Source: Subsaxibacter sp. CAU 1640 (GTDB lineage Bacteria > Bacteroidota > Bacteroidia > Flavobacteriales > Flavobacteriaceae). From it: 64,000 nucleotides of DNA. The stretch lies in assembly GCF_023156585.1 (NCBI RefSeq), contig NZ_JALNMI010000001.1, positions 372,001 to 436,000 on the forward strand, read 5' to 3'. Below, piece after piece: positions 1,302 to 21,208 of this stretch (position 1 is the stretch's first letter; the number at the start of each line of letters is the position of its first letter). The position numbers and the translations under genes were made by a program. Below the pieces are notes generated by a model, which was not told the origin of the DNA, did not search any database, and was given only the letters and a program-made list of their open reading frames with translations.

Positions 1302-1362
1302 GTTTAAAATTTTGGTGTCTTGAAAGGACAGTTTCGGATTCAATTATGTATTTTAAAAATCA

Positions 1363-1427
1363 AACAAATGTAACCCATTACACAGAAAAACGTACTGACT
1401 ACACAATTGTAATGCTTTACATTTGTT
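1363..1427. repeat. Inverted repeat upstream of the LytTR regulator
   Basis: Arms AACAAATGTAA (1363-1373) and TTACATTTGTT (1417-1427) are perfect complements. Inside them CATTAC (1376-1381) and GTAATG (1409-1414) also pair, giving a long interrupted dyad ending about 20 bp before the ATG at 1449. It could be an operator or a transcript hairpin. Confidence 0.4.
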
Positions 1428-1448
1428 AATATTGCTATCTTTATAATT

Positions 1449-2183: not shown

Positions 2184-2189
2184 CGATTT

Positions 2190-4178
2190 ATGTACCATTT
2201 GCTCCCTAAAATAGCAGCATCTATACGATGCAAATTTTTCCTTTGTGTTATTTTTTCAATCACAAGCAACTTCTTACATACGTATTCGCAAACTCCCAAA
2301 GATTCGGTTTTTGATCAGGCTTTGGAGGAAGTCATTAAAACAAAACCAAAAAACTATGAGGCTATAGATTCCCTTTTTGCTGAATTTAGCAAAGACAGTC
2401 TCAAGATGAAAGACCTTTTATATAAAGCAAAATCTATTAAATATTTAGAGGCGGAGTCTTATGCACAAAATTCACTGGGCGTCATTTACAGAAATATTTC
2501 TCATTATGAAAAAGCTCTAGATGTGCACCAAAAGGCTTATATGCTTGCCGAATTGGCCAATAATGTAGAACTGGAAGTTATAAGTTTAAACATGATTGGT
2601 GTGGTTTACAGACGAATGGATGCCATTAAACCTGCTCTAGATTATCATAAAAAAGCACTTGAAATAGCCAACAGAGCAGAAAATCCATCTGATAGACTTA
2701 AGGCGAGCATTGCGGTATCCCAAAACAGTATGGGAAATATCTATCTCACTTTGAAACAATATGATTTGGCCATCAAAGAGTTTGAGAAATCTTTGATAAT
2801 CGAAAAAGAATTCAATAATAGATTAGGTTTGGCAATCAACTATCAAAATCTAGGCTATGCTGATGAAGCTCTGGGCAAATTGGAATTGGCTTTGAAAAAC
2901 TACAAACGCTCTTTGGATTATAACAATCAAATCAACTCCGAAGTTGGGCGCGTCATATGCTACAACAGTATTGGGCAAGTTTACATCAAACAGAAAAAAT
3001 ATGGTGATGCCAAAGTGATCATTGAAGAAGGATTAAAGAAAGCCATTAATATCAATGATCAGTTTTATATTTCCTCTTCCTACATCAATCTTGGATGGAC
3101 AGAAATGGAAATGAAGCTTTATAAGTCTGCCGAAGAAAACTTGAAAAAAGGACTTGAAATTGCCGAAAACTACAGCCTGAAATCAGCCATAGTTGAGGCC
3201 AGTTCAAAACTGTCAGAACTTTACAATAGAACTGGCAACTACAAAGAAGCGATGACCAATTATAAAAAGTCGGTTGAGCTGGAAAAAACCATATTCAACG
3301 AACGAAATATGCAATATGTCAGCGACATTATTATTCAATATGAAAATGAAGCAAAAAACAATGAAATAAAAGCATTGGCAAGTGAAAACGAGATTGTAAA
3401 ATCAAAATTAGAGCGCAATCAAAAAATATTCTGGTTTACCTTATTAGGTCTAATTATACTTGCTGGCTTGGTGATTGCCTTCAACCGAAACCAACAATTG
3501 AAGCAAGAAAAGCAAATTTTGACCCTTGAACAGGATATGCTGCGAAGCCAGATGAACCCACACTTTATCTTCAATTCGCTTAATTCCATCAAACTTTACA
3601 TCATCAACAATGAAAAGGAGAATGCAGTTTATTATCTCAATAAATTCTCAAAACTCATTCGTAAAATCCTGATTGCTTCAACCGAGAAGGAAATGACTCT
3701 TGAAGATGAATTGGACACGATGAAACTCTATATGAATATTGAAAACATCCGATTTTCAAATGAAATCGATTTTCAGGTGGAAGTCGATAAATCCATCAAT
3801 ACATCTAACATAAGAGTTCCTTCCCTTATTCTTCAACCGTTCTTGGAAAATGCACTTTGGCACGGATTGTCTTCAAAAGAAGATAATAAATCTATCATTT
3901 TGAATGTTACCAAACCATCCGAAGATTACATCAGTATTACAATTACTGACAATGGTGTGGGAAGAAAAGAATCTAGCCGAATCAACAACAATAAAATTTT
4001 AAAACGAAAATCTGTAGGAATTGCGATTACCAAAGCTCGTTTGGCCAATTTCTCGAAGGGTTTTACAAGTGATTACAAGATTAATATCGAAGATCTTTAT
4101 GATGCAGCCGGAAAGGCCGAAGGCACAAGAGTCATAGTAAATATTCCCATAAGGTCCAATGTTTTAAAAATTGCTTAG
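2190..4178 (+). CDS. TPR-containing LytS-type sensor histidine kinase
   Basis: 662 residues. A signal-like hydrophobic start (FFLCVIFSITSNFL) is followed by about 330 residues of tetratricopeptide repeats (e.g. NSMGNIYLTLKQYDLAIKEF), a coiled-coil-like helix near 370-405, a single membrane helix (WFTLLGLIILAGLVIAF), a His_kinase domain with H458 in QMNPHFIFNSL, and an HATPase domain (LILQPFLENALWHG, ITDNGVGRK). The TPR part should therefore lie outside the cytoplasm and the kinase inside. This architecture is common in Flavobacteriia and pairs with LytTR regulators such as the gene just upstream. The TPR region presumably senses a protein or peptide, but the signal is not known. Confidence 0.92.
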   Translation: MYHLLPKIAASIRCKFFLCVIFSITSNFLHTYSQTPKDSVFDQALEEVIKTKPKNYEAIDSLFAEFSKDSLKMKDLLYKAKSIKYLEAESYAQNSLGVIYRNISHYEKALDVHQKAYMLAELANNVELEVISLNMIGVVYRRMDAIKPALDYHKKALEIANRAENPSDRLKASIAVSQNSMGNIYLTLKQYDLAIKEFEKSLIIEKEFNNRLGLAINYQNLGYADEALGKLELALKNYKRSLDYNNQINSEVGRVICYNSIGQVYIKQKKYGDAKVIIEEGLKKAININDQFYISSSYINLGWTEMEMKLYKSAEENLKKGLEIAENYSLKSAIVEASSKLSELYNRTGNYKEAMTNYKKSVELEKTIFNERNMQYVSDIIIQYENEAKNNEIKALASENEIVKSKLERNQKIFWFTLLGLIILAGLVIAFNRNQQLKQEKQILTLEQDMLRSQMNPHFIFNSLNSIKLYIINNEKENAVYYLNKFSKLIRKILIASTEKEMTLEDELDTMKLYMNIENIRFSNEIDFQVEVDKSINTSNIRVPSLILQPFLENALWHGLSSKEDNKSIILNVTKPSEDYISITITDNGVGRKESSRINNNKILKRKSVGIAITKARLANFSKGFTSDYKINIEDLYDAAGKAEGTRVIVNIPIRSNVLKIA

Positions 4179-4191
4179 ACTCCGGTAGAAT

Positions 4192-4758
4192 TTACTTGAA
4201 TTTTTCTGCGACTTTCTCCAATTCCATATACCAATCTTCTCCAAATTTTCTGATAAGAGCTTGTTTTACAAATTTATAAACTGGCACTTGTAATTCTATG
4301 CCCAGAGTGCAGGCATCATCACAAATTTCCCATTTATGATAATTAACAGCTGAAAATTCGGTGTAATCTTTAACCCTTATCGGATATAAATGGCACGAGA
4401 CAGGTTTTTTCCAATCAACGGCGCCTTGATTATATGCTTCTTCAATACCACAAAGTGCTGTACCTTTTTTATCAAAAATAACATAAGCACAATCAGCTCC
4501 ATCAATAAGTGTTGTTTCGTGTTCACCCCAATCATTGGTAGTAAATGTTCCTTGCGCTTCAATTGCAGCGATACCTTCTTTGCGAAGAAATGGCTTCACT
4601 TTTGGATAAATGGCTTCCAAGATTTTTGTTTCCTCCAGTTCCAATGGGGCTCCTGCATCACCATCTACGCAGCAGGCTCCTTTGCACGCAGAAAGATTGC
4701 ACACAAAATCTTTTTTGATAATATCTTCGGATATGATGGTTTTTCCTAGTTGAAACAT
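4192..4758 (-). CDS. DUF3109 family cysteine-rich protein
   Basis: 188 residues with a cluster CNLSACKGACCVDGDAG near the N-terminus and further conserved cysteines (GADCAYV, TALCGIEEA, VSCHLYPIR, EICDDAC). This pattern is that of DUF3109, a family widespread in Bacteroidetes and related to putative zinc/iron-chelating cysteine-cluster proteins. Metal binding is inferred from the cysteines and the biochemical role is not established. It converges with the sensor kinase gene (13 bp between stops) and is divergent from marC. The ATG at 4758 is the only sensible start because the cysteine cluster follows closely. Confidence 0.85.
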   Translation of the reverse strand: MFQLGKTIISEDIIKKDFVCNLSACKGACCVDGDAGAPLELEETKILEAIYPKVKPFLRKEGIAAIEAQGTFTTNDWGEHETTLIDGADCAYVIFDKKGTALCGIEEAYNQGAVDWKKPVSCHLYPIRVKDYTEFSAVNYHKWEICDDACTLGIELQVPVYKFVKQALIRKFGEDWYMELEKVAEKFK

Positions 4759-4816
4759 CCGGCAAAAATACTTAAAGTTAACTGTTTATTAACGCTCAAA
4801 TTCTGGATTAATGACC

Positions 4817-4824
4817 TACTTTTG
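4817..4824 (+). promoter_or_regulatory. Bacteroidetes -7 promoter box for marC
   Basis: TACTTTTG matches TAnnTTTG and ends 24 bp before the marC ATG. No clear TTTG -33 box is seen. Confidence 0.45.
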
Positions 4825-4848
4825 CAAAAAATTTAAAGCGTTAAAGCG

Positions 4849-5436
4849 ATGAACCTGAATTTTAAAGAAATATTTACGGCTTTTATGGTTCTTTTTGCGG
4901 TGATTGATATTATCGGCAATATTCCAATTATTATTGATTTGCGCAAAAAAGTGGGTCATATTCAAAGTGAAAAAGCTTCGATTATTGCTGGTATCATATT
5001 GATTCTTTTCTTGTTTTTGGGGCAAAACATCCTGTCTCTCATTGGTATTGGAGTAAACTCTTTTGCAGTTGCAGGTGCTTTTATCTTATTTTTTATTGCT
5101 TTGGAAATGATTTTGGGAATCACATTGTATAAACACGAAGAAACTGATATTTCCACGGCCTCGGTTTTTCCTTTGGCGTTCCCTTTGATTGCTGGTCCCG
5201 GAAGTTTGACAACATTACTTTCCCTACGTGCAGAATTCAGAATAGAAAATATAATTGTAGCCGTCATCTTAAACGTAATCATTATCTTTATGGTACTGAA
5301 AACGTCTGCCAAGATTGAACGACTGCTTGGCCAAAACGGTATTAGCATCATCCGTAAAGTGTTTGGTGTGATTTTATTGGCAATTGCCGTAAAGCTTTTT
5401 GCACATAACATCAAGGCCTTGTTCGAAGTAGCTTAA
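4849..5436 (+). CDS. MarC family integral membrane protein
   Basis: 195 residues, almost entirely hydrophobic with about six membrane segments. It starts with FMVLFAVIDIIGNIPIII, the signature N-terminus of the MarC/UPF0056 family, and has the typical FPLAFPLIAGPGSLTTLL segment in the middle. The length fits the family (about 190-220). MarC proteins sit in the inner membrane; their transport role is not settled, and the early link to multiple antibiotic resistance was not supported. The gene is followed after 14 bp by a short membrane protein and then an FAD oxidoreductase on the same strand. Confidence 0.9.
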   Translation: MNLNFKEIFTAFMVLFAVIDIIGNIPIIIDLRKKVGHIQSEKASIIAGIILILFLFLGQNILSLIGIGVNSFAVAGAFILFFIALEMILGITLYKHEETDISTASVFPLAFPLIAGPGSLTTLLSLRAEFRIENIIVAVILNVIIIFMVLKTSAKIERLLGQNGISIIRKVFGVILLAIAVKLFAHNIKALFEVA

Positions 5437-5450
5437 AAAGATTTCTTATT

Positions 5451-5654
5451 ATGAAAATAGCATCTATTATTCTTTCCATAATGGCTGTAGGATTGATTGT
5501 TTTTAACGCGACAAGATTAAATTTTGACGCGCTTTTTAAAGGAGAAAGTCTTATTGCTGCGATTATGATTCTCGCATCACTTTGTGCCATTTTGATCCTT
5601 CAGATTTTATGGACGTCAAAACGAATTGAGAAACTTTCAAAACAGAAAAATTAA
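5451..5654 (+). CDS. Small two-helix membrane protein
   Basis: 67 residues with two hydrophobic stretches (IASIILSIMAVGLIVF and LIAAIMILASLCAILILQILW) and a basic C-terminus (KRIEKLSKQKN). I do not recognise a named family. Its stop codon shares a base with the ATG of the next gene (TAATG), and it follows marC by 14 bp, so the three genes look co-transcribed. A membrane-anchoring or accessory role is only a guess. Confidence 0.75.
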   Translation: MKIASIILSIMAVGLIVFNATRLNFDALFKGESLIAAIMILASLCAILILQILWTSKRIEKLSKQKN

Positions 5655-6256
5655 TGTTTGACGCTTTAATCATTGGAGGTGGAGCTGCTGGACTTTCTTG
5701 TGCATTGGTATTAGGTTCAGCTCAAAACAAACCTTACGCTCAAGACAAGAAAATTGGAATTATCGTTCACCAAAGGACATCGCATCTTCAAAGTGCACTT
5801 TTCAACAATGTATTGGGATTGAAGCCTGGTACTACTGGTCAATCTATTTTAGAGGAAGGTAAATCTCAATTGGCAAATCTTTATTCAAGTGTGCTTCAAA
5901 TTAAAGGTGAAAAGGTAATGGAAATCCGAAGGGAAGAAGATCATTTCATAATCATCACCAATAAAGCGTCGTATAGCTCTAAACTAGTAGTTGTAGCTGT
6001 GGGTTATACAAACCTCATCAATATCAAAGGTCTCGAAGATTATATAGAGCCACATCCCAGAGCAGTTGCTGCAAAAGAACGGATTTGGTTAAAAAATACG
6101 GATCATTTAATTGAAAATGGGCTGTATGTTGCTGGAAGTTTGGCTGGCTGGAGAAGTCAGTTTGCAATTGCTACAGGTAGTGGTGCGCAGGTAGCAACAG
6201 ATATTCTGACTTTATGGAATGATGGCATTGACAGCCAAGTACACGATAAAATCTAA
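5654..6256 (+). CDS. Short FAD-dependent oxidoreductase, thioredoxin-reductase-like
   Basis: 200 residues. It starts with the dinucleotide-binding motif IIGGGAAGLSCAL and has the C-terminal FAD-binding signature LYVAGSLAGWRSQFAIATGSG. Typical thioredoxin reductases are about 310 residues, with an inserted NADPH domain carrying a CxxC active site. Both are absent here, so only the FAD-binding part is kept. The frame is intact from start to stop, with no internal break, so this looks like a natural short family form rather than a pseudogene. The electron donor and substrate are unknown. It overlaps the upstream small membrane gene by one base and converges with the S41 protease gene. Confidence 0.85.
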   Translation: MFDALIIGGGAAGLSCALVLGSAQNKPYAQDKKIGIIVHQRTSHLQSALFNNVLGLKPGTTGQSILEEGKSQLANLYSSVLQIKGEKVMEIRREEDHFIIITNKASYSSKLVVVAVGYTNLINIKGLEDYIEPHPRAVAAKERIWLKNTDHLIENGLYVAGSLAGWRSQFAIATGSGAQVATDILTLWNDGIDSQVHDKI

Positions 6257-6258
6257 AA

Positions 6259-7851
6259 TCACTGATTTTTACTCAACTTTATCACTTCTTCTATCATATC
6301 ATCAGTGGTATTCATAATTTCTTCGTAAGCGTCGTGACCAAACAACTGGTCTGCCAATGAAGCCTTTATAAGTTGTTTTATTTCAGCGTTGTATGCTACA
6401 AAAGTGATTTGTACACGTTCCTTCAAACTCAAATAGTTTTGGAAACGCACCACAATATCATCGCTTACTTCAAAATTTTTGATGAAATCAGCTCGAGTAA
6501 CACCTTCAAAGGCTGACCTGTCTTTATCCAATTCTTCAAACACAAAATAACTGATATAACCTCTATTATTGATGTAACTGATGGTTTCATTATGTACATT
6601 GGTATCCAATGGTACAAAAATATCAGGAATGATTCCGCCACCACCATAAACCACTTTTCCTTTTGGGGTGACAAAACGCAACGAATCTGCAATTCTGATG
6701 TGCGATTCATCAATCAACTCATCATTGCTCAATCTTTTGTAATAATCGTTGTAATAATCTTCATTCTTACCGTTTTCATAAGGTCGCTGAATGGAACGCC
6801 CTGTTGGTGTGTAATATCTAGAAACCGTAAGTCTCACAGCGCTACCATCACCAAGAGCCATTTCGCGCTGTACCAAACCTTTTCCGTAACTGCGCCTTCC
6901 TACAATAGTTCCTTTATCATTATCTTGCAATGCACCAGCTACAATTTCACTTGCAGAAGCTGAATTTTCATTGATGAGAATAAAAACTTCGCCTTCTTCA
7001 AAATCTCCTCTACGAGTGGCGTAACTCTTTTCTATTTTCCCAGATTTATTCTTGGTAAATAAAATCAATTTATCATCTTCCAAAAATTCATCCACTATCT
7101 GTTCTGCAATACCTAAAAAACCTCCAGGATTATCTCTCAAATCCAACGCCAATTTAGTAGCACCTTGGTCTTGCAGCCGATCCAAAGCTTTCTTAAACTC
7201 TTTATAAGTCGATTCCGCAAACCGATTGATTTTTATGTAACCCAATTCTGGAGTCAGCATATAAGCCGCATCGACACTATTGATAGGAATGTCGCTCCTT
7301 TTTACGGTAAAATCCAGCAATTTATTTTCTCCACGACGGTAAACTTTTAATCGAATTTTCGTGTCTTTCTCACCTTTCAGTTTTTGAATAATTTCATCGT
7401 TGCTCATCGTCGTTCCAAAAATGGAATCACCATCCACCATAATAATTCGGTCGCCACTTTTGATTCCTGCTCTTTCACTTGGACCACCTTCAACAGGCCT
7501 GATAATAGCAATCGTATCTTTATAGGTATAAAAACTCACGCCTATTCCCACAAAATCACCCTTCATATTTTCAGTAACACGCTGCATTTCACTTTGGGGA
7601 ATATAGGTAGAATGAGGGTCAAGATTATTCAAAATGCCATTTACGGTCACATCGACAATGCTGTCCGTATTGATATCATCAACATATTCGTAATCAATAT
7701 AATCTATCAGTCTGTTGAGCTTATCTTTTTTACTGTTGGAAGTAAATAAACGATCAGAAGTATCAGTAAAATTAAGCTTACCACCAATGAAAACGCCTAT
7801 CGCAATGGCGAAACCTACAATAAGTGGAATATATTTTCTACTTAATTTCAT
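6259..7851 (-). CDS. S41 family C-terminal processing peptidase
   Basis: 530 residues. An N-terminal hydrophobic helix (YIPLIVGFAIAIGVFIGG) acts as signal or membrane anchor. A PDZ domain spans about 95-175 (GGPSERAGIKSGDRI), followed by the S41 protease domain. The catalytic dyad is readable as S299 in ENSASASEIVAG and K324 in RRSYGKGLVQ, with the same 25-residue spacing as in Prc/CtpA. These enzymes cut periplasmic proteins at their C-termini and act in envelope quality control. The start overlaps the stop of the dCMP deaminase gene by 4 bp (ATGA), so the two are translationally coupled. The C-terminal 130 residues are family-typical. Confidence 0.94.
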   Translation of the reverse strand: MKLSRKYIPLIVGFAIAIGVFIGGKLNFTDTSDRLFTSNSKKDKLNRLIDYIDYEYVDDINTDSIVDVTVNGILNNLDPHSTYIPQSEMQRVTENMKGDFVGIGVSFYTYKDTIAIIRPVEGGPSERAGIKSGDRIIMVDGDSIFGTTMSNDEIIQKLKGEKDTKIRLKVYRRGENKLLDFTVKRSDIPINSVDAAYMLTPELGYIKINRFAESTYKEFKKALDRLQDQGATKLALDLRDNPGGFLGIAEQIVDEFLEDDKLILFTKNKSGKIEKSYATRRGDFEEGEVFILINENSASASEIVAGALQDNDKGTIVGRRSYGKGLVQREMALGDGSAVRLTVSRYYTPTGRSIQRPYENGKNEDYYNDYYKRLSNDELIDESHIRIADSLRFVTPKGKVVYGGGGIIPDIFVPLDTNVHNETISYINNRGYISYFVFEELDKDRSAFEGVTRADFIKNFEVSDDIVVRFQNYLSLKERVQITFVAYNAEIKQLIKASLADQLFGHDAYEEIMNTTDDMIEEVIKLSKNQ

Positions 7852-8282
7852 TCTGCACTCAAATCTTCTATTCGTTCCAATTCAATTCCTGCCTTTTCCA
7901 AAAATTGCAAGCCAGAATCGTCCTTATAACGTTCAAGATACACAACACGTACAATACCTGCTTGATGTATCAACTTACTGCATTCTTTGCACGGAGAAAG
8001 CGTCAAATAAAGTGTTGCACCTTTACACGATTGTGTTGAGGCTGCCACTTTTAAAATAGCGTTGGCCTCGGCGTGCAGCACATACCATTTGGTATAGCCT
8101 TCTTCATCTTCACAATGGTTTTCAAAGCCTGTTGGCGTGCCGTTATAACCATCGGAAATAATCATTCTATCCTTTACAATAATCGCTCCAACCTGCTTTC
8201 TTTTGCAGTGGGATAACTTTCCCCATTCTCTCGCAATTCTTAAATATGCTTTATCGTATCGTAGTTGTTTTTTCTTTGGCAT
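7848..8282 (-). CDS. dCMP deaminase family protein
   Basis: 144 residues with the zinc-dependent deaminase signature: HAEANA (zinc ligand H and proton-shuttling E) followed by LSPCKECSKLI (two cysteine ligands). Its N-terminal region (YLRIAREWGKLSHCKRKQVGAIIVKD) is that of the ComEB/dCMP deaminase branch. The enzyme converts dCMP to dUMP as a source of dTMP. The gene is upstream of, and overlaps by 4 bp, the S41 protease, an order common in Flavobacteriia. Upstream lies an intergenic repeat element at 8299-8396. Confidence 0.93.
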   Translation of the reverse strand: MPKKKQLRYDKAYLRIAREWGKLSHCKRKQVGAIIVKDRMIISDGYNGTPTGFENHCEDEEGYTKWYVLHAEANAILKVAASTQSCKGATLYLTLSPCKECSKLIHQAGIVRVVYLERYKDDSGLQFLEKAGIELERIEDLSAE

Positions 8283-8298
8283 TAAATTTTTAAAGTGT

Positions 8299-8396
8299 TT
8301 GGGCGTTCCCTTCGGTCGGGCTTTCCGCTATATCTTTTTGTCAAAAAAAGTCAGCCTTATATGACAAAAAGGATGCCGCTGCAATCCCTAACGCAA
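8299..8396. repeat. Intergenic dispersed-repeat-like element
   Basis: A GC-richer stretch unlike the AT-rich spacer around it. It has GGGCGTTCCCTTCGGTCGGG at its left end and GGATGCCGCTGCAATCCC near its right end, with a 9-bp stem between (CTTTTTGTC at 8334-8342 and GACAAAAAG at 8363-8371). From memory, very similar segments recur between genes in many Bacteroidetes genomes. Within this window it is single copy, so dispersal is not shown here. Confidence 0.5.
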
Positions 8397-8471
8397 ATCT
8401 ATAACGAATATAGGAGGTTCGTTATTTAATTTATATAATTTAGAGTTAAAATTTTCGTGATTGCCAGCAAT

Positions 8472-9062
8472 TTAGGCAAACAAGCCATTATTGATAAGCA
8501 TTGGGATAAGCACTCCTACTACCACTGCCGAAAGCACCACAACCCAATCTCGTTTTGAAAACCTGAAAATCGTTTGGCATAAAAAGCCTAAAAACACCAC
8601 AATAAAAGCCGCAATTAGTTGCCCCAATTCTATTCCCAAAGCCAATTCCAATAAAGCCACCAATTTACCAATGGTTTGATTGATATGTTTGGAAAAAAGA
8701 CCTACAAAACCAAGACCGTGAACCAGCCCAAAAAATAGAGAAGACAAAAACAATATTCCTATCTTCTCGCTAGTTGCTTTCTTTCCAGCGGTGAAAACGT
8801 TATATAGCGCGACGACCAATATGATTAAAGGAATCAAAAAGTCAATTAGTTTAAGATTCACTTTAATAATGCCATACACTGCCATAAGAAGTGAAAGCGT
8901 ATGACCCAACGTGAAAAGTGAAACCAAAAGCAGCAAACGTTTCCAATCCTTAAATAAAAATGGAACGGATAAAACTATCAGAAACAGAAGATGATGATAG
9001 GCATATACATTGAGAATATGATCTATGCCATAACGCACGTTGAACCAAAAATTGTCTAGCAT
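8472..9062 (-). CDS. HupE/UreJ family membrane protein
   Basis: 196 residues, five to six membrane segments. It has the family hallmarks: an early helix with GIDHIL and YHHLLFL, then LFTLGHTLSLL, and later FFGLVHGLGFV. These histidine-bearing helices are typical of HupE/UreJ proteins, which are linked to nickel handling for hydrogenase or urease in other bacteria. No hydrogenase or urease genes are visible here, so its substrate is open. It stands alone on the reverse strand between the repeat element and the Y-family polymerase. Confidence 0.85.
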   Translation of the reverse strand: MLDNFWFNVRYGIDHILNVYAYHHLLFLIVLSVPFLFKDWKRLLLLVSLFTLGHTLSLLMAVYGIIKVNLKLIDFLIPLIILVVALYNVFTAGKKATSEKIGILFLSSLFFGLVHGLGFVGLFSKHINQTIGKLVALLELALGIELGQLIAAFIVVFLGFLCQTIFRFSKRDWVVVLSAVVVGVLIPMLINNGLFA

Positions 9063-9132
9063 AAGTCTATGAATTTGGGCAAATTCAAAGGTACAAGGAA
9101 ACTGTATTGTTGCAAAATATATTTAGGGCAAA

Positions 9133-10350
9133 TCAAGACCGTCTATTTGCCAACAATGGTGGTGGCTCTCCTGTAAACGGATTCCAACGGCTGATGGTTT
9201 TTGCCTCCATCCCTGCAGCACTGATGACAGCTCTGTCACCGTAACGTTCACGCATTCTGTCGATGGCACTGCTTAAGTTCAAATATTTGGTGTCATCTTC
9301 AAATAAATTTACCTGATGGCCTCCTTCTACCAGATGGCTAAACTTCACGCCTACCAATCGCACCAATAGACGTCGATTGTAGAGTTTTTCAAATAAATTC
9401 AACACTGTCGGAATCAAGCTATGGTCCATACAACTATACGGAATGTGTTGTTGCTGAGTATAAGTCTGAAAGTCAGAATAACGAATCTTAAAAGTTACGC
9501 ACGCTGTCAATTTATTGCCTCTTCGCAATTGATACGCTAGATTTTCAGTCATAGCAATCACGATGCCTTTCAACATCGCCACATCAATTGTGTCCTTATC
9601 AAACGTTCGTTCTGTGGAAATTGATTTTCGTTCGTGGTATTGTATGACAGGAGAGTTATCAATGCCATTGGCTTTATTCCAAATGGTCAAACCGTTTTTC
9701 CCCAGCACTTTATATATCAATTCCATCGGCATCTCTTGTACGGTTTTGATTTGTTTGATGCCCAAATCACACAAAGATTTATAGGTAACACTTCCCACCA
9801 TCGGGATTTTCTTTACAGATAAAGGTGCCAAAAATGGCTTTTCCGTTCCCGAAGCAATCCGAAGTTCATTATTGGGTTTTGCTTCTCCGGTTGCGATTTT
9901 TGAAACCGTTTTGTTAAGTGACAATCCGAAAGATATCGGAAGCCCTGTTTCCTTGATGATGCGTTGGCGCAATTCAGAAGCGAGTTTATGACAACCGAAA
10001 AATTTGTCCATACCCGTTAAATCAATATAAAACTCGTCAATGGAAGTTTTTTCATACAGCGGCACACTTTCTTTGATAACATCAGTGACTTCCGCTGAAT
10101 ATTCTGTGTACAACCCAGAATCACCTCTTAATATAATGGCTTCTGGGCACAACTGTCTGGCCATACGCATCGGCATTGCAGAGTAGACACCAAACTTTCG
10201 AGCTTCATAACTACAGGATGCAACCACACCCCTATCGCTGGTGCCACCAATAAGAATAGGCTTTCCATTCAGTTTACTGTCCCTTTTTCGTTCGCAAGAC
10301 ACGAAAAAGGTATCTAAATCCATATGCACTATTGAGCGATTCTTATCCAT
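9133..10350 (-). CDS. dinB: Y-family DNA polymerase (Pol IV type)
   Basis: 405 residues from the ATG at 10350. A TTG 11 codons upstream is possible but less likely, because Y-family proteins begin just before the first catalytic block. The palm residues are IVHMDLDTFFVSCERK and TSIDEFYIDLTG. The finger motif is SCSYEARKFGVYSAMP, followed by a helix-hairpin-helix region (VKKIPMVGSVTYKSLCDLGI) and the little-finger domain. The C-terminus (NPFTGEPPPLL) is an extra tail I associate with Bacteroidetes forms. The enzyme copies past damaged bases at the cost of mutations. It is last in a reverse-strand run after the VapBC-like pair, 37 bp behind vapC. Confidence 0.93.
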   Translation of the reverse strand: MDKNRSIVHMDLDTFFVSCERKRDSKLNGKPILIGGTSDRGVVASCSYEARKFGVYSAMPMRMARQLCPEAIILRGDSGLYTEYSAEVTDVIKESVPLYEKTSIDEFYIDLTGMDKFFGCHKLASELRQRIIKETGLPISFGLSLNKTVSKIATGEAKPNNELRIASGTEKPFLAPLSVKKIPMVGSVTYKSLCDLGIKQIKTVQEMPMELIYKVLGKNGLTIWNKANGIDNSPVIQYHERKSISTERTFDKDTIDVAMLKGIVIAMTENLAYQLRRGNKLTACVTFKIRYSDFQTYTQQQHIPYSCMDHSLIPTVLNLFEKLYNRRLLVRLVGVKFSHLVEGGHQVNLFEDDTKYLNLSSAIDRMRERYGDRAVISAAGMEAKTISRWNPFTGEPPPLLANRRS

Positions 10351-10387
10351 TTTCGATATAAACAGTTTGGGACGAAGTATCAAATAT

Positions 10388-10810
10388 TTACTTATTGAGT
10401 CTTCCTCTCAAATAAGTTTCAGGCGTCATTACGGCCAGAGTGCTTTTTTTAAAATCTTTTATATTTCTTGTGAGTAATACTCGAATCTTTCCATTTTCCA
10501 AAGCCGAAAAGTTCTGCAAGGCATCTTCAAAATCTGTAAAATCTGAATTAAGCGCATTCAGCACTACTTTTTTATCCATATCAGCAATATCGATGATGGT
10601 CAAGAGTTGTTTCAACTTTTCAATAATCAAATGATGCTTTCCTATCTTCCTTAATAAATAGTACACATTTGAAATCACGACTGGCGTAGTGAATCCCTTT
10701 ATTTTTCCTTCTTCACATAAATTAAGCACTTGTGCCGCATATTGGGAATACGGTTCACGGTCAAAAAAGAAATCCAATAAGACATCGGTGTCTATCAATA
10801 CATCGTCCAT
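10388..10810 (-). CDS. vapC: PIN-domain toxin (VapC type)
   Basis: 140 residues with the PIN nuclease pattern: DVLIDTDVLLDFFFDREP at the start (two acidic residues), a middle acidic residue, and NSDFTDFEDALQNFSA with LLTRNIKDFK near the end. PIN toxins are Mg-dependent ribonucleases, often cutting tRNA or rRNA. The start lies one base after the stop of the antitoxin gene, the standard coupled arrangement. The pair sits between dinB and the dnaE-type gene, which are often neighbours in related genomes, so it was probably inserted there. Confidence 0.88.
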   Translation of the reverse strand: MDDVLIDTDVLLDFFFDREPYSQYAAQVLNLCEEGKIKGFTTPVVISNVYYLLRKIGKHHLIIEKLKQLLTIIDIADMDKKVVLNALNSDFTDFEDALQNFSALENGKIRVLLTRNIKDFKKSTLAVMTPETYLRGRLNK

Positions 10811-10811
10811 T

Positions 10812-11063
10812 TTATAAATATTTTTCTTCCAAACGCTTTTTAATCTCTTTTTTATAATCCACTTTTTTGGACGTTTTAAAGGAGCCCTTCAATGATTTTA
10901 CAATAGGATTAAGTTCTGGTTCATCTCGTTTCCGTTCCTCCATCGTCAATATTTTAAGATAATTTTCAATGATATCGGATAAGCTTCGGTTTTTTTCCTT
11001 TGCATATCGCTTTGCCTTCTCTATGATTTTTTTTTCGATTGTCAATGTCAATTTTGTACTCAT
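10812..11063 (-). CDS. vapB: VapB-like antitoxin (ribbon-helix-helix, DUF6364 type)
   Basis: 83 residues starting MSTKLTLTIEKKIIEKAKRY, a short beta strand then helix typical of DUF6364/ribbon-helix-helix antitoxins (KLTLTIEKKIIEKAKRYAKE, RSLSDIIENYL). The C-terminal half is charged (KKVDYKKEIKKRLEEKYL) and likely wraps the toxin. It is directly upstream of vapC. An inverted pair of ACACGT elements (11104-11110 and 11127-11133) lies between this gene and the end of the dnaE gene and could be its operator. Confidence 0.82.
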   Translation of the reverse strand: MSTKLTLTIEKKIIEKAKRYAKEKNRSLSDIIENYLKILTMEERKRDEPELNPIVKSLKGSFKTSKKVDYKKEIKKRLEEKYL

Positions 11064-11079
11064 AATAATTGTCTTTTTT

Positions 11080-11087
11080 CAAAATTA
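11080..11087 (-). promoter_or_regulatory. Bacteroidetes -7 promoter box for vapBC
   Basis: On the reverse strand TAATTTTG matches TAnnTTTG, 16 bp before the antitoxin ATG. This suggests the toxin-antitoxin pair, and perhaps dinB behind it, has its own promoter. Confidence 0.4.
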
Positions 11088-11124
11088 ATCAAAAAACCAA
11101 TTATACGTGTTATTTTTAAAAATT

Positions 11125-16364: not shown

Positions 16365-16396
16365 AAAAAAGCCTCAACATTTCTGTTAAGGCTTTT
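16363..16396. terminator. Terminator, originally behind tRNA-Leu
   Basis: Stem AAAAGCCT/AGGCTTTT extended by AACA/TGTT with an A8/T tract. It follows the exonuclease gene directly and abuts the duplicated tRNA end at 16396. Read on the reverse strand it ends in T8, so before insertion it would have terminated the tRNA-Leu transcript. Confidence 0.75.
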
Positions 16397-16419
16397 GTAC
16401 TCAAGGTGGGAATTGAACC
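16396..16419 (+). other. attL: duplicated 3' end of tRNA-Leu
   Basis: TGTACTCAAGGTGGGAAT is identical to 21127-21144 minus its final base context, followed by one mismatch (T for C) and GAACC, so 23 of 24 bases match the 3' end of the intact tRNA-Leu at 21127-21150. It marks the outer left end of an integrated element. Confidence 0.85.
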
Positions 16420-16548
16420 TATTTAATTTTGATAGTTTCTTAAACGCTCTAAAAATACATACAACACCCTTATTTTATTACTACTTACAAACGTTTTGCG
16501 ATGTTATTAAAATTAGTTGAGGTTCTAAATAATTAATCTAAATTAGGT

Positions 16549-16572
16549 AAATGTTGTACACTATGTCGGCAC
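16549..16572 (+). repeat. 24-bp direct repeat, left copy (candidate integrase arm site)
   Basis: 24-bp segment containing TGTTGTACACTATGTCGGCA, identical to 21047-21070. It lies 153 bp inside attL and 51 bp before the integrase gene. Confidence 0.7.
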
Positions 16573-16622
16573 TATGGAATTTTAGACTATATTTGATTTG
16601 TTCAAATGTTAGATTATAAATA

Positions 16623-17936
16623 ATGGCTTCTTTAAAGTACTTCATTAAGGGAAACCAAAACCCTACGACAATTTATTTACGCTTCACTCAAGGCCGTAAA
16701 ATCGATTTAAAACGCTCAACTTCTTTACTCATAAATCCGAAATACTGGAATGCAACCAAAGGAGCTGTTAAACAAATTTCAGAATACGCCGATAAAAAGA
16801 ACCTACAAAACGACCTCAACGGATTAAAGACGGCTATTTTAAACAGTTTTAACGAACATTATTCAAAAGGTGGCATCATTAACGCCGAATGGCTAAACCA
16901 AACCGTAAAACAGTATTTTCAGCAAGACGGTAAAACCGATTTGAATTACTTTTTGGATTATTCACAGTACTACAAAGACAATTTGACTTCAAAAGTACAA
17001 TCGACTGGTAAAACTGGCGTGACCAGTAACACTCTTAAACGCTATAACACCATCATCAATAAAGTTACCGCCTTTGAAACTCATCAAAAGAAACGATACA
17101 CCTTTGAAATGATTGATTTGAAGTTTTACAAGGATTTCAAAAACTATCTAATCAAAGTTGAAAATCTTAACCTAAATACTACTGGCCGTTATATCAATTA
17201 TATCAAAACGATATGCATAGATGCTAAAAAATACGGCATCAAGATTAATCCAGTAGTGCTAAATGGCGAATTTAGACCAACTAAAGAACCTGTTAATTTT
17301 ATCACGCTATCAAAAACCGAAATCGACACGATTTTTAAACACGATTTCAGCAATACACCTTATTTGGATAATGCGAGAAACTGGCTAATCATTGGCCTAT
17401 GGACTGGCGCACGTGTTAGCGACCTTTTAAAATTCACTAAAAACAACATCCAAAACGGTTTTATTGAATATACAGCCAAAAAGACTGGACAAAAAATCAT
17501 TTTGCCTTTGCATCCACACGTTAGAGAAATTTTAGAAAACCTCAACGGCGAATTTCCTAAAGAGATTTCGAGCCAAAAACTCAATGACTATATAAAGATT
17601 GTTTGTAAGACAGCTGGACTAAATGAGGTTGTCAAAGGATCCAAACAAGTTGAGGTTAAAAATAAAATTTGGCGAAAAGAAAACGGCCATTACCCGAAAT
17701 ACGAATTAGTTTCTACTCACATTTGCCGTCGTTCTTTTGCCACTAACCATTACGGACAACTACCTACGCCTGTTATAATGGCTGTTACTGGACATACAAC
17801 CGAAAAAATGTTTTTGAACTACATAGGCAAAACGGCAAAGGACAACGCCAATGTTTTACACGAATTTTGGCAAGTCCAGGAACAAAAGAAACTTCAAAAA
17901 CCTCATCTAAATCTAATTAAAACACAAACAGCGTGA
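16623..17936 (+). CDS. Tyrosine recombinase/integrase of the tRNA-Leu element
   Basis: 437 residues. The N-terminal arm-binding region (KYFIKGNQNPTTIYLRFTQ) and a SAM-like core-binding domain (about 110-215) are typical of Bacteroidetes integrases, followed by the catalytic domain. The active-site residues are all present: R in GARVSDLLKF, K in KKTGQKI, HxxR in STHICRRSFATN, H in VTGHTTEKMF, and the nucleophile Y in LNYIGKT. It sits next to attL, transcribed into the element, and presumably joins attP to the 18-bp identity in tRNA-Leu. It overlaps a short downstream gene by GTGA. Confidence 0.95.
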   Translation: MASLKYFIKGNQNPTTIYLRFTQGRKIDLKRSTSLLINPKYWNATKGAVKQISEYADKKNLQNDLNGLKTAILNSFNEHYSKGGIINAEWLNQTVKQYFQQDGKTDLNYFLDYSQYYKDNLTSKVQSTGKTGVTSNTLKRYNTIINKVTAFETHQKKRYTFEMIDLKFYKDFKNYLIKVENLNLNTTGRYINYIKTICIDAKKYGIKINPVVLNGEFRPTKEPVNFITLSKTEIDTIFKHDFSNTPYLDNARNWLIIGLWTGARVSDLLKFTKNNIQNGFIEYTAKKTGQKIILPLHPHVREILENLNGEFPKEISSQKLNDYIKIVCKTAGLNEVVKGSKQVEVKNKIWRKENGHYPKYELVSTHICRRSFATNHYGQLPTPVIMAVTGHTTEKMFLNYIGKTAKDNANVLHEFWQVQEQKKLQKPHLNLIKTQTA

Positions 17937-18106
17937 AAACATCAAAAGACATAACAACACCAATAGGTTTTTTCAATACATATTTTGACCTTTTGCCACA
18001 ATATAAAACCAATAAAGATGCATTTGATTATCTGAATACTCAAGTTGAATACATCACAGGCAGAAAACTCTTTAAGAACTACGAACAATGGCAAAATAGC
18101 CAATAA
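17933..18106 (+). CDS. Small GTG-start ORF coupled to the integrase
   Basis: 57 codons beginning with GTG at 17933, which overlaps the integrase stop (GTGA). The product starts MKTSKDITTPIGFFNTYFDL and ends KNYEQWQNSQ. I recognise no family. It contains DAFDYLNT, encoded by 26 bp that are identical to a stretch of the next gene (18017-18042 versus 18481-18506, both in frame). The coupling and open frame support a real small protein, but it could also be a leftover of a recombination event. Confidence 0.5.
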   Translation: MKTSKDITTPIGFFNTYFDLLPQYKTNKDAFDYLNTQVEYITGRKLFKNYEQWQNSQ

Positions 18107-18120
18107 ATACTTTTGTTCAA

Positions 18121-18747
18121 ATGTCAAATAATACACTTAAAACCAGTTATCGAGAATTGCAAGACCACTTAAGGGCAATTTCTGAAATTCCAGAACGAGT
18201 AAATCGTTGCGATGAGGTTTTAAAAAAAGAGCTGTTAGAACACATCGACAATAGAATACAAGACGTTTTAGGCACTATAAACGGCGTATTAATGGTAAAT
18301 TCCGACTATAATTATCCTAATGAATACTTGCCTAATCGACAATTTGAATACTGGGCTGAAAGAGTTAATCAGGAATTCAACTATTACCAGTTTGTAAGAT
18401 TGAGGGAATTTATTTTAAACAGTATTGAAGTTAGAGCCGTACGAAATAAACACGAAAGGCATTTTTTTGAAACTGGATTAGATGCATTTGATTATCTGAA
18501 TACTCATTTTACCGACAAGGATAGGGCGTTAACAACTAAATATACAATTCTGTATCATTTTTTGAGATATAAAAACCTCATAAGGGCTACAGCTGTAGAA
18601 TACCAGTCTTTTGTTAGAGAATACACATCACTACCTCAAAAATTCAGTAGATTGAATTTTGACAACTCCGACAATCCAATTTATTTAACTCACGAACGAC
18701 ATCTAATAGAACTTTATAAGGAATTTCTATCACTTCAAAACAAATGA
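18121..18747 (+). CDS. Unrecognised 208-residue protein of the element
   Basis: Soluble, mostly helical-looking protein without signal peptide, membrane segment or nuclease motif that I can see. It begins MSNNTLKTSYRELQDHLRAI and has an aromatic-rich centre (FEYWAERVNQEFNYYQFVRL). It shares the in-frame 26-bp DAFDYLNT segment with the small ORF upstream. It lies 14 bp after that ORF, between integrase and excisionase-like gene, a position often used for accessory recombination or regulation genes. No function is assigned. Confidence 0.75.
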   Translation: MSNNTLKTSYRELQDHLRAISEIPERVNRCDEVLKKELLEHIDNRIQDVLGTINGVLMVNSDYNYPNEYLPNRQFEYWAERVNQEFNYYQFVRLREFILNSIEVRAVRNKHERHFFETGLDAFDYLNTHFTDKDRALTTKYTILYHFLRYKNLIRATAVEYQSFVREYTSLPQKFSRLNFDNSDNPIYLTHERHLIELYKEFLSLQNK

Positions 18748-18819
18748 ATTAGATTGATATAATATTGAATTAATCACTACTCAATTTTGCCATAACTTTA
18801 ATTTTAAATGTTTTGAGTT

Positions 18820-19104
18820 ATGGAAACAATCCAATTTTTAAACACCAGTCCAAACGCATTGGCTAATCTAATTGATGAGAAATTAAAAGAGCAATTAGAT
18901 GACCTTAAAAAGAACTTCACGCCAAAAGAACCGGAAGAATTTATGTCACGGAATGAAACGGCTAAACTTCTTAAAATATCGTTGGTAACATTACACGACT
19001 GGATTAACAAAGGCATATTACATCCTTATAAGATGGGTAACAAAACGTATTTCAGTCGTAAAGAGATTACCGAGACTATTTACAGCTCCAACAAATCGAA
19101 GTGA
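18820..19104 (+). CDS. Excisionase-family helix-turn-helix protein
   Basis: 94 residues. The C-terminal half (FMSRNETAKLLKISLVTLHD, then WINKGILHPYKMGNKTYFSR) is the winged MerR-like HTH_17 domain found in excisionases of Bacteroidetes mobile elements. The N-terminal 40 residues form a charged helix (NLIDEKLKEQLDDLKKNF). In such elements this protein steers the integrase to excision and may also regulate promoters. It has its own 72-bp upstream spacer, and its TGA overlaps the ATG of the next gene (TGATG). Confidence 0.85.
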   Translation: METIQFLNTSPNALANLIDEKLKEQLDDLKKNFTPKEPEEFMSRNETAKLLKISLVTLHDWINKGILHPYKMGNKTYFSRKEITETIYSSNKSK

Positions 19105-19637
19105 TGAAAACGGCCGAAATTGAATTTTTGAGGGCTATCTATTCAAAGACCTCATCTAAAGTAAATGATACAATCATTGAATATAATCTACTGGCCAATG
19201 ATGAGGTTATTGATGAACCTTTGTTCACTCCAATTGTGAGACTTGAACTTGATAACGGCTTTCACGATAGAAGTAGGTATTTTGATTACTGGCTTTATTT
19301 CAGAAATGACACCAACTGGAAAAGGTGCGCACGTACTGGATTAGCAAAAACAGACTTCAACTATATTCTTGAGGGCAATATATCGAGGGAATTAAACCTT
19401 TCCACTAAAACAGCCAAAGGCAAAAACTTTGAGACACCTCAACATTTGGTGATAGTTCAAAGTGCTGACATACATTCTTATTTGATTGTTGATATCTTCA
19501 AAGACTTCTACATTAGGAAAAAACAGATTTTAAAACACTTTATCAAAGACCACATCAAAGAACATCCTGCAACAAAAAAAGAGCCGTTAAACAGCTCTTT
19601 AGTTTGTTCAAATGTTTGTAATAACGGACCACGTTAA
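19104..19637 (+). CDS. Unrecognised 177-residue protein of the element
   Basis: Starts at the ATG that overlaps the excisionase stop (TGATG). A GTG one codon earlier is possible. The sequence begins MKTAEIEFLRAIYSKTSSKV and contains FDYWLYFRNDTNWKRCARTG and a basic helix near the end (RKKQILKHFIKDHIKEH). I recognise no family. A hairpin with flanking A/T tracts (19578-19600) lies inside the last 15 codons, so transcription may partly end within the gene. Coupling to the HTH gene suggests joint function. Confidence 0.7.
   Translation: MKTAEIEFLRAIYSKTSSKVNDTIIEYNLLANDEVIDEPLFTPIVRLELDNGFHDRSRYFDYWLYFRNDTNWKRCARTGLAKTDFNYILEGNISRELNLSTKTAKGKNFETPQHLVIVQSADIHSYLIVDIFKDFYIRKKQILKHFIKDHIKEHPATKKEPLNSSLVCSNVCNNGPR
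19578..19600 (+). terminator. Terminator-like hairpin inside the 3' end of a gene
   Basis: Stem AAAGAGC (19578-19584) and GCTCTTT (19594-19600), preceded by an A tract. It lies within the coding region that ends at 19637 and separates the integrase-side genes from the candidate replication gene. Confidence 0.4.
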
Positions 19638-19666
19638 AACAATGGCAATATACAAAATCGATACTT

Positions 19667-20104
19667 ATGAATTACCGAAAACAAGATACACAAAAAGAAC
19701 AATATATAACCATACCAACGTGGTTAATAAAAATGACCTCAAACAGAAAATCTCCTATTTTTCTAACTCCATTTGAGCGCGAACTATTCTGTTTGATTAA
19801 AGGCTTAAGTATAAAGGCTCCGTGTTATGCCAATGACCAGTACTTTGCATCAACGTTTAATGTGACAATAAAACATATAAACAAGAGTATTTCAAACCTT
19901 TCAAACAAAACTTTTCTAAATATTGAACACGACAATTTTAAAAGGTTGTTAAGTGTTAATAAAGACTTCGACAAGGACGCTGGGTTTGTATTCTTTGACA
20001 ATTTAAACAATAAAATATTTGTTTGTGATTGCAATAATGAGATATGGACAACTCGAAATGATATTGAAAGAGATACCATTGATTTCTTTAAAAAGTGTTC
20101 TTAA
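19667..20104 (+). CDS. Winged-helix/HTH protein, candidate replication initiator
   Basis: 145 residues. After a polar start (EQYITIPTWLIKMTSNRKSP) comes a segment FLTPFERELFCLIKGLSIKA, then NDQYFASTFNVTIKHINKSI. This is the helix layout of HTH_36-type winged-helix domains, which occur in replication initiators and plasmid or phage regulators. Directly after its stop lie four 22-bp iteron-like repeats and AT-rich DNA, the usual rep-iteron order of theta plasmids. Initiator function is inferred from this context. A simple regulator binding the repeats is the alternative. Confidence 0.55.
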   Translation: MNYRKQDTQKEQYITIPTWLIKMTSNRKSPIFLTPFERELFCLIKGLSIKAPCYANDQYFASTFNVTIKHINKSISNLSNKTFLNIEHDNFKRLLSVNKDFDKDAGFVFFDNLNNKIFVCDCNNEIWTTRNDIERDTIDFFKKCS

Positions 20105-20107
20105 TAC

Positions 20108-20194
20108 TATTAACCTACAGGTGCATTGGTATTAACCTACAGGTGTATTGGTATTAACCTACAGGTGCATTGGTATTAACCTACAGGTGTATTA
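20108..20194 (+). repeat. Four 22-bp iteron-like tandem repeats
   Basis: Units TATTAACCTACAGGTGCATT+GG at 20108-20129, 20130-20151, 20152-20173 and 20174-20194 (last one incomplete). They differ only at one base, which alternates C, T, C, T. Each contains the 10-bp dyad ACCT-AC-AGGT. The 22-bp period places every site on the same face of the helix, as in plasmid origin iterons. An AT-only stretch follows at 20191-20218. Confidence 0.9.
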
Positions 20195-20415
20195 TATAAT
20201 ATAATTAATACTATAATTTAAAAGATAGTGTATATACCTTTCGCTAAAATGATTTTGATTTATTAAAGGGATATGGGGTAAAATCACTACGATAAATATT
20301 GCTCCTACATCGCTGTTTAGTCAGAATTTTATACACGACAATTTTTTATTAGGGGGGGGTTACTTCGATTAAATCAATATTTATATTTTCATATCTTTAA
20401 TAAAATTGACGAGTT
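20195..20415. other. Non-coding stretch after the iterons
   Basis: AT-rich DNA following the repeats, a candidate unwinding region (20191-20230), then a run of eight G at 20352-20359, then a possible -7 box TATCTTTA at 20392-20399 before the gene at 20416. No gene is seen. Confidence 0.55.
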
Positions 20416-21018
20416 ATGGAACATAATTTAAATAGTGATTTTCAAATGCATTACTGGGATTTTATGTATGCCATAGAATTCGATTTAAAAACGTTATCAA
20501 GGTATATTGAGTTAAATGACAACAACCTAAACACTTATTCTATAGAATTGGTGCGACTGTATTTATCAACTTGTTCAGAAATTGAGGTGGTTTTAAAAGA
20601 GTTCTGCAAGATTTTAAACGATAGTTCGGAGCCACGAAATATAACGCAGTATAGAAATATAATTAAACCTGAAAGGCCTCAAATGCTTGATGAGATTGTG
20701 AATATTGGTTTTAAAAAAACAGTAACGCCGTGGGTTGATTGGAAAAAAGACACTACGCCTAAATGGTGGAAAGACTATCAATTAGTCAAACATAGTAGAA
20801 ATGAATACTATCACCTGGCTACTTTGGAAAATGTCTTGCATTCAGTTGGAGCTTTGTTCTTATGCGTACATTTTTATTATTTGGAATATTTATCCCAAAT
20901 CCCAAAGAGCATTTTACCTCGCGAACTATCATTAAAGGATATAACATCTATATTCAATTCAGGTAACAACTTTTTGAAACTAGCATCAAAACATCAGCAA
21001 GGATTTTTATCTATATAA
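20416..21018 (+). CDS. Putative HEPN-like cargo protein
   Basis: 200 residues, helical, no signal peptide. The segment LVKHSRNEYYHLATLENVLH contains R128-N-E-Y-Y-H133, the RX4H pattern of HEPN ribonucleases, set before a hydrophobic helix (SVGALFLCVHFYYLEYL), as in HEPN four-helix domains. It also has PWVDWKKDTTPKWWKDYQ. It is the last gene before attR, separated by a 311-bp spacer and with its own promoter-like box, the usual place for cargo. A defence or toxin-type RNase role is inferred from one motif and context. No antitoxin is visible beside it. Confidence 0.5.
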   Translation: MEHNLNSDFQMHYWDFMYAIEFDLKTLSRYIELNDNNLNTYSIELVRLYLSTCSEIEVVLKEFCKILNDSSEPRNITQYRNIIKPERPQMLDEIVNIGFKKTVTPWVDWKKDTTPKWWKDYQLVKHSRNEYYHLATLENVLHSVGALFLCVHFYYLEYLSQIPKSILPRELSLKDITSIFNSGNNFLKLASKHQQGFLSI

Positions 21019-21046
21019 AATAGATAAGATTTTTTAGGTTTTGATT

Positions 21047-21070
21047 AAATGTTGTACACTATGTCGGCAC
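21047..21070 (+). repeat. 24-bp direct repeat, right copy (candidate integrase arm site)
   Basis: Identical in all 24 bases to 16549-16572. It lies 57 bp inside attR. In an excised circle the two copies would flank the joined att core in the same orientation. Confidence 0.7.
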
Positions 21071-21074
21071 AAAT

Positions 21075-21109
21075 AAAAAACCCTATCTACAAACTTATTG
21101 TAAATAGGG
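21075..21109 (-). terminator. Terminator for tRNA-Leu supplied by the element
   Basis: Stem CCCTAT/ATAGGG (21081-21086 and 21104-21109) extended by TACAA/TTGTA. On the reverse strand it is followed by TTTTTTATT. It sits 20 bp beyond the tRNA 3' end and replaces the original terminator now found at 16363-16396. Confidence 0.7.
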
Positions 21110-21128
21110 CGTTCTAAAGAATTAAATG

Positions 21129-21208
21129 TACTCAAGGTGGGAATCGAACCCACACTCCGAAGAACTGGATTTTGAATCCAGCGCGTCTACCAATTCCGCC
21201 ACTTGAGC
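21129..21208 (-). tRNA. tRNA-Leu (anticodon CAA)
   Basis: Reverse strand. Acceptor arms GCTCAAG (21208-21202) and CTTGAGT with discriminator A at 21129; the first pair is G-U. The anticodon stem CTGGA/TCCAG encloses loop TTCAAAA, giving anticodon CAA. The T arm is GTGGGTTCGATTCCCAC. The variable arm is of class II type. CCA is not encoded. The 3' end doubles as attR of the element, and the gene remains complete. Confidence 0.95.

Follow-up and report, generated by a model that had tools for sequence, protein, structure and literature searches.

A family of small integrative elements in Flavobacteriales tRNA and tmRNA genes with an exchangeable replication cassette and a conserved predicted small RNA

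Results

An integrative element in a tRNA-Leu gene

The window analyzed here is a 64,000-nt stretch of Subsaxibacter sp. CAU 1640 (NZ_JALNMI010000001.1, 372,001-436,000; coordinates are window positions unless a related locus is named), and it contains a small integrative element lodged in a tRNA-Leu(CAA) gene. The tRNA gene call (21128-21208, minus strand) shows that the insertion restores this integration site. The 3' end of the gene is duplicated as a direct repeat, identical at 23 of 24 bp, that brackets 4.7 kb: the tRNA-side att core (21127-21150) was found by repeat search, and the distal att core (16396-16419) by repeat search and by an empty site in a relative. Inside both cores lies a second, perfect direct repeat of 25 bp (TAAATGTTGTACACTATGTCGGCAC), one copy of which (16548-16572) is ~130 bp inward of the distal core and the other (21046-21070) ~57 bp inward of the tRNA-proximal core. 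The related element of Winogradskyella epiphytica (L003) shares 21 bp of it, and most relatives have paired repeats 100-160 bp inward of the distal core and 50-105 bp inward of the tRNA-side core. As this is the position expected of integrase arm sites, the 25-bp repeats are candidate arm sites that the integrase may bind.

Between the att cores lie seven open reading frames (ORFs), all intact and all in one direction, on the plus strand. The first encodes a tyrosine integrase of 437 aa (int, 16623-17936) with Phage_int_SAM_5 and Phage_integrase domains above the Pfam cut-offs, 76-77% identical to the integrases of L003 and of the Oceanihabitans sediminis element, L002. It overlaps by 4 nt a 57-aa ORF (17933-18106) that is kept in tRNA-Leu(CAA) elements. 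The regulator slot that follows holds a 208-aa protein (18121-18747) whose N-terminal part is variable and whose C-terminal part is helical. Next come an HTH_17 excisionase/AlpA-like protein of 94 aa (18820-19104; above the Pfam cut-off) and a conserved 178-aa protein (19101-19637), our family marker, whose profile finds matches across the order; it is mostly beta in a low-confidence AlphaFold model (pLDDT 55), for which Foldseek returned no match. The last two genes encode a winged-helix replication initiator-like protein of 145 aa (rep, 19667-20104) and, in isolation, an accessory (cargo) protein of 200 aa (20416-21018; phrog_19461, E 8e-6).

The original prediction for this DNA had described the duplicated tRNA-Leu 3' end, a complete tyrosine integrase, a gene for an HTH_17 excisionase-like protein, a winged-helix-like gene followed by four 22-bp repeats and a single isolated cargo gene, and the repeat and tRNA calls, the Pfam domains and the phage-initiator matches given below agree with it. 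Its count of four unrecognised genes also stands, although the element has seven genes in total and not eight. Absent from it were the 25-bp repeat and a minus-strand RNA gene (19574-19645), to which we return below.

The 57-aa and 208-aa genes have in common an identical 27-bp stretch (AGATGCATTTGATTATCTGAATACTCA; 18016-18042 and 18480-18506), encoding DAFDYLNT in both, which may reflect partial duplication or gene conversion. Among the relatives, a cargo protein of ~196 aa with a CPxTxKxCRKLHL motif and no Pfam family recurs in at least eight elements (L031 4879-5478, L034 9413-10000, L037 3058-3657, L039 4503-5096, L029 6288-6878, L030 10295-10885, L010 14464-15054 and L050 4763-5362).

An empty site and a family of relatives

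In a congener (G002, locus L047), the left flank of the window element (to 16419) and its right flank (from 21127) join with an overlap of exactly 24 bp, and the tRNA end is uninterrupted in the genomes G001 and G003, too. The same tRNA-Leu(CAA), upstream of prs, is occupied in O. sediminis, in W. epiphytica and in a further genus (L008) by elements of the same gene order, that is int, the 57-aa ORF (not a fixed member), the 208-aa slot, HTH_17, the 178-aa gene, the RNA and rep. Because a congener has the empty site and three other genera have the same insertion, the arrangement is not due to chance. An empty site and second insertions in relatives were two of the checks proposed with the original prediction, and both were found. 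The locus thereby combines a tyrosine integrase, an att duplication of a tRNA 3' end and an empty site, which together characterize a site-specific tRNA integrative element.

Other relatives reside at tRNA-Arg, -Asn, -Gln, -Cys, -Asp and -Leu(TAA) genes and at the transfer-messenger RNA (tmRNA) gene, bounded by att repeats of 14-25 bp, and their neighbourhoods follow one plan: int, in some cases small ORFs, regulator slot, HTH_17, 178-slot, rep, cargo and the tRNA or tmRNA gene. Two members, L114 and L118, are missing the 178-slot gene. The 14 elements for which both ends were measured span 4.3-9.6 kb, with a G+C content below that of their flanks. Among the genomes sampled, 14 of 397 from the bacterial family and 16 of 396 from the order (~4%) have a profile match to the 178-aa protein; one match per set, in G125 and in G408, looks false and was discarded as an unrelated protein. 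By these sequence comparisons, the window element is a member of a widespread Flavobacteriales family in tRNA and tmRNA genes. We found no description of the family in the open-access literature, and it is apparently undescribed.

The replication gene as an exchangeable cassette

The 145-aa protein matches the phage replication-initiator family phrog_2880 (E 4e-4) and the 'replication initiation protein' of staphylococcal phages 77/85 (39% over residues 17-87, E 1e-3), where the likeness is to the winged-helix domain. Past its gene lie 3.9 tandem copies of a 22-bp iteron (20108-20193; 95% matches, core ACCTACAGGT) and an AT-rich tract (20187-20260, 18% G+C) that is a candidate unwinding region. 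Initiator gene, adjoining direct repeats of 18-23 bp and AT-rich region make up the layout of an iteron-type theta replicon, from which replication is predicted. We found no DnaA box beside the iterons; the sole one (TTATTCACA at 16958) is far away, within int.

The initiators of the window element and L003 are homologous (42% identity), and the iterons of both have the core ACCT(AC/GT)AGGT, either as ACCTACAGGT or as its reverse complement ACCTGTAGGT. Other short initiators are found in L002, L008 and L009, where 23-bp arrays lie inside the gene (L002) or directly after it; the L002 protein has no similarity to that of the window. Genes that are homologous to the winged-helix gene, or that replace it functionally, thus adjoin 22-23-bp iterons elsewhere, which was the third of the proposed checks. 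The remaining initiators are 270-500 aa long and without a match in profile searches of Pfam, PHROGs or PDB. All five elements with short initiators have such iterons, and none of the ~20 with long ones has an array of this kind beside the gene. Chance is therefore an unlikely explanation, and the pattern supports the notion of an initiator together with its binding sites. Since unrelated proteins fill the slot after the 178-aa gene, the rep gene is, as far as sequence comparison can tell, an exchangeable cassette. For the long initiators, a rolling-circle type is a guess from the likeness by eye to a motif (xKxYxKxx..LRFExK), and the AlphaFold model of one of them is too weak to use (pLDDT 37).

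With iteron theta replicons and phage initiators (phrog_2880, Phage_rep_org_N/DnaD-type) the window cassette shares the winged-helix initiator, iterons of 22-23 bp that follow the gene or lie within it, and the AT-rich tract; it differs in that the protein is short (145 aa), the element is integrated and a plasmid relative was not found. When the 178-aa protein and the initiators were searched by tblastn against phages and plasmids, the initiator domain of phage 77/85 was the single match. Scans of viral contigs with the marker and with the integrase returned none, whereas the long initiator returned two, L049 and L050. The former (IMGVR_UViG_3300005144_000045, 1-11124), a viral contig with a DnaB-type helicase, carries a related module that reads int, 369 aa, HTH_17, 97 aa, initiator.

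A conserved predicted RNA opposite rep

When the interval from the 178-slot gene to rep was aligned, the same block appeared in 25 of 25 elements, regardless of rep type. It lies on the strand opposite rep, measures ~70 nt and consists of a -7 box, a hairpin whose apex is often GUUGCC, an unpaired core (CAUUUGAACAAA; some elements have GGUUUGAAC instead), a terminator hairpin and a U run. The Bacteroidetes-type promoter has TAnnTTTG as its -7 box, and this sequence is perfect in 17 of the 25 copies and has at most one mismatch in 23. In the window, the predicted small RNA gene extends over 19574-19645 on the minus strand, antisense to the rep leader, with two hairpins and a terminator with 7 U.

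The first MAFFT alignments gave no consensus fold, as hairpin lengths vary, which was solved with a three-sequence covariance model and realignment. Built from three other elements, the model matches the window copy (19575-19633; 33 bits, E 3e-4 over 474 kb) and eight further copies (E <0.001 in 474 kb), always in the same position and on the same strand. Across 11 aligned copies, 93% of the pairs are kept, compared with 41-64% in slid controls and a level that none of 500 shuffles reached; compensatory double changes occur at 14 of 15 pairs. None of 200 dinucleotide shuffles of the window RNA folds as well as the RNA itself (z -3.7). The strand is indicated by 12 G-U against 4 A-C pairs and by a mean U run of 5.7 against 3.2; the fold alone does not pick the strand, and L035 folds better on the opposite one. 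At the gathering score, no Rfam family matched the RNA, the only hits being tRNA, tmRNA and the chromosomal Flavo-1. The conserved predicted RNA is uncatalogued and the most unusual part of the element.

The model also has 77 genome matches at E up to 0.01. Most are probably ordinary terminators, because element genes are absent around the four weaker ones that we examined (L119-L122, 38-40 bits). Three genomes without the element carry solitary copies of the RNA (L115 6793-6865, minus strand; L116 6740-6804 and L117 7017-7083, plus strand), 100-200 bp from the 3' end of a tRNA-Leu(TAA) or tmRNA gene. In two of the three, arm-like doublets lie between the RNA and the tRNA or tmRNA gene, and the L117 sequence TTCCCCACATATTCCCCACA is complementary to the arm repeat of L002; a second att core is absent. 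By their sequence, these copies look like element ends from which the rest was lost and the RNA kept, and three are too few for a claim of selection.

Predicted targets of the RNA

The unpaired core is complementary to two gene starts of its own element: a 14-nt site in the int leader (TTTGTTCAAATGTT, 16597-16610, plus strand) and a 13-nt site across the start codon of the 208-aa gene (TTTGTTCAAATGT, 18112-18124, plus strand). After the RNA locus itself, these are the best two predicted sites in the window element, with pairing energies of -17.2 and -15.0 kcal/mol against a best value of -13.7 kcal/mol among 60 shuffled elements. The bias holds across the family: in 16 elements, 19 of 48 top sites lie no more than 40 nt from the int or regulator-slot start, as opposed to 0-3 of 48 with 12 sets of shuffled cores and 1 of 48 at other gene starts.

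Core and target also vary together. Twenty of 21 elements have GTTCAAA in their int leader, to which the core is complementary, and the core often matches the start codon of the third gene as well. In the int leader, core GGTTTGAAC goes with GTTCAAACC or GTTCAAAC(C), and core CATTTGAAC with GTTCAAATG or GTTCAAAT. L037 has core GATTTGAAC and target GTTCAAATC, and the L008 core matches its own regulator start perfectly over 15 nt. Cores pair with targets of their own type at -13.0 and -10.4 and with the other type at -10.7 and -8.0. By sequence, the complementarity to int is non-random and covarying. At the same level, the locus has the attributes of a trans-acting antisense small RNA, that is a promoter (degenerate in the window copy), a terminator, an unpaired seed complementary to target starts and covariation of seed and target.

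GTTCAAA could instead be a DNA operator for an element protein, such as the 208-slot or HTH_17 product, with the hairpins a mere terminator and no functional RNA. The motif does lie directly past the int -7 box and at the regulator gene start, and a covarying operator would likewise differ between elements. Against this, the motif sits centrally in a two-hairpin transcript unit that has its own -7 box and a U run on one strand, and the first hairpin covaries though dispensable for termination. Moreover, the distance from motif to promoters varies between copies, and solitary RNA copies persist at tRNA and tmRNA genes without the protein genes. We therefore regard a pure operator as rather improbable. 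Because own-type pairs are stronger and covary, pairing by the RNA seems several times likelier, and its effect would be repression, since the duplexes would cover start codons and leaders.

In regulator-slot leaders, GGCAACG is frequent (L074 6530-6570, L075 8815-8850, L076 9540-9575), complementary to the apex of the first hairpin. These leaders hold GTTCAAATG as well, in an order that is not that of one continuous duplex.

Discussion

A hitchhiker that would depend on a helper

Scans with Pfam, PHROGs and NCBIfam recognised no relaxase, no type IV secretion or conjugation gene and no packaging gene in the window element, as the original prediction had held for transfer genes, and none of the packaging-redirection genes terS, ppi and rpp. 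Because transfer and virion genes are absent, the element would need a helper; it is probably able to insert, excise and replicate, and unable to transfer alone. The earlier suggestion of an integrative plasmid or satellite moved by a helper still accounts best for the gene content after the search for an empty site, second insertions and iterons beside related genes.

The helper may be a phage. We give an even chance to a satellite of the PICMI/PICI type, which an infecting phage would activate, whereupon it would be copied and packed in the particles of that phage. In the PICMIs of Vibrionaceae, the core is just int, an AlpA-like helix-turn-helix gene and a replication gene (primase), in 5-7 kb at fis (PMC10803314). 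The window element resembles them in size, in this gene set, in the gene overlapping int by 4 nt, in the lack of virion genes and in variable cargo, and its initiator and iterons are phage-like. Two relatives point the same way. L037, an 8-kb element at tmRNA, carries a 624-aa virion-like cargo protein (3787-5661, minus strand; phrog_33803, E 2e-113), and L050 (IMGVR_UViG_3300012252_000039, element 1-5519) adjoins a terminase-bearing prophage, with a tmRNA core at 5505 between them. However, this tandem is incomplete, as the 32.8-kb record ends within the prophage, and no second integrase was found in that record. Moreover, no cos/pac site (judged without a helper), terS or capsid-redirecting gene was recognised, and the family marker is unmatched in 50,697 phage records and, for the iteron branch, in IMG/VR. 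Nor do two of the features that define PICMIs hold: int and HTH_17 are present, but the co-localised primase is replaced by a phage-type winged-helix/iteron or long initiator, and the site is tRNA-Leu(CAA), or tRNA and tmRNA genes in general, rather than fis. The conserved predicted small RNA is a further difference.

Small integrative mobilizable elements (IMEs) are common, whether or not they encode a relaxase, and Bacteroidota are rich in conjugative transposons. The window element could thus be an IME with no more than an oriT, borrowing both relaxase and mating channel from a resident conjugative element, like the iOriT elements defined in PMC11389934. We consider this unlikely: a relaxase is absent, an oriT-like feature was not recognised (judged without a reference oriT set), the RNA gene is the one non-coding block conserved in all members, and the marker is absent from 72,556 plasmids.

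A decayed remnant that has lost its mobility is a very doubtful alternative. Four of the seven genes are unrecognised and the window copy of the RNA has a weak promoter, but the ORFs are intact, the att cores still agree at 23 of 24 bp, the 25-bp arm repeats are identical, the four iterons are near-identical and presence among congeners is patchy.

Other islands at such sites offer partial parallels. To the extent that the available portion of the account goes, the Pseudomonas tmRNA islands moved by a jumbo phage (I55; PMC12595487) are likewise small, with a tyrosine integrase and no transfer genes; they belong to another phylum and have other genes, and neither a conserved replication cassette nor an RNA is reported in that portion. 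The 10K genomic island of Riemerella anatipestifer, for which PCR demonstrated excision and a circular form through its own integrase (PMC6764341), is also flavobacterial and at a tRNA gene; compared on site, size and excision alone, it differs in its 10 kb and its 53-bp att at tRNA-Arg.

A predicted RNA that would keep the element quiet

We envisage that Int recombines attP with the tRNA-Leu(CAA) 3' end through core and arm sites, that the HTH_17 protein steers excision and that the excised circle is copied from the iterons by the winged-helix initiator. A helper would provide movement, and between its visits the element would be kept quiet by its own small RNA. Transcribed opposite rep, this RNA would act as a cis-antisense to the rep leader, whereas its exposed core CAUUUGAACAAA would pair in trans with the int leader and with the start codon of the 208-aa gene.

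The plasmid copy-control antisense RNAs of pT181, pMV158 and R1 are transcribed against the rep leader, opposite which our predicted RNA lies as well; here, by contrast, a conserved unpaired core is complementary to int, and the RNA is retained when an unrelated rep replaces rep. RteR of the Bacteroides element CTnDOT targets tra genes, and the sgm-sRNA of SGI1 is needed for transfer (PMC9299015). Both are small RNAs of a mobile element acting on its own mobility, as predicted here; their sequences are unrelated, and our predicted targets are int, the regulator and the rep leader.

We hold, with reasonable though not high confidence, that this is a complete small integrative replicon, helper-dependent and kept quiescent by its own RNA. 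Several points weigh on the other side. A helper match, an oriT and a cos/pac site were not found in the element, as judged without a reference oriT set or a helper, and the long initiators have no identified relative. The -7 box of the window RNA copy is poor, with three mismatches; the structural alignment of the RNA was fitted to its model; and the paired motifs lie near promoters, so that a DNA operator could account for part of the pattern. The entire case is built on sequence analysis.

The elements are a new family within a known kind, the integrative hitchhikers, and what sets them apart is the exchangeable rep cassette and the conserved RNA. They address the open question of how islands with an integrase but without transfer genes move and stay silent, and they offer a very small, defined model: about six core genes, a swappable rep cassette whose iterons are visible, and a conserved RNA for which the predicted targets are well supported. 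Carriers include culturable marine strains that are not pathogenic, O. sediminis and W. epiphytica. More tentatively, at slightly less than an even chance, we propose that dormancy is imposed by this one RNA, blocking the translation of int and the regulator in trans and acting on rep in cis, in place of a repressor protein of the CI or Stl type; that the RNA is kept through exchanges of unrelated rep cassettes; and that, alone beside a tRNA or tmRNA gene, it may confer immunity against incoming relatives. If so, the family would possess a lysogeny-like switch made of RNA, and the solitary copies would represent acquired immunity.

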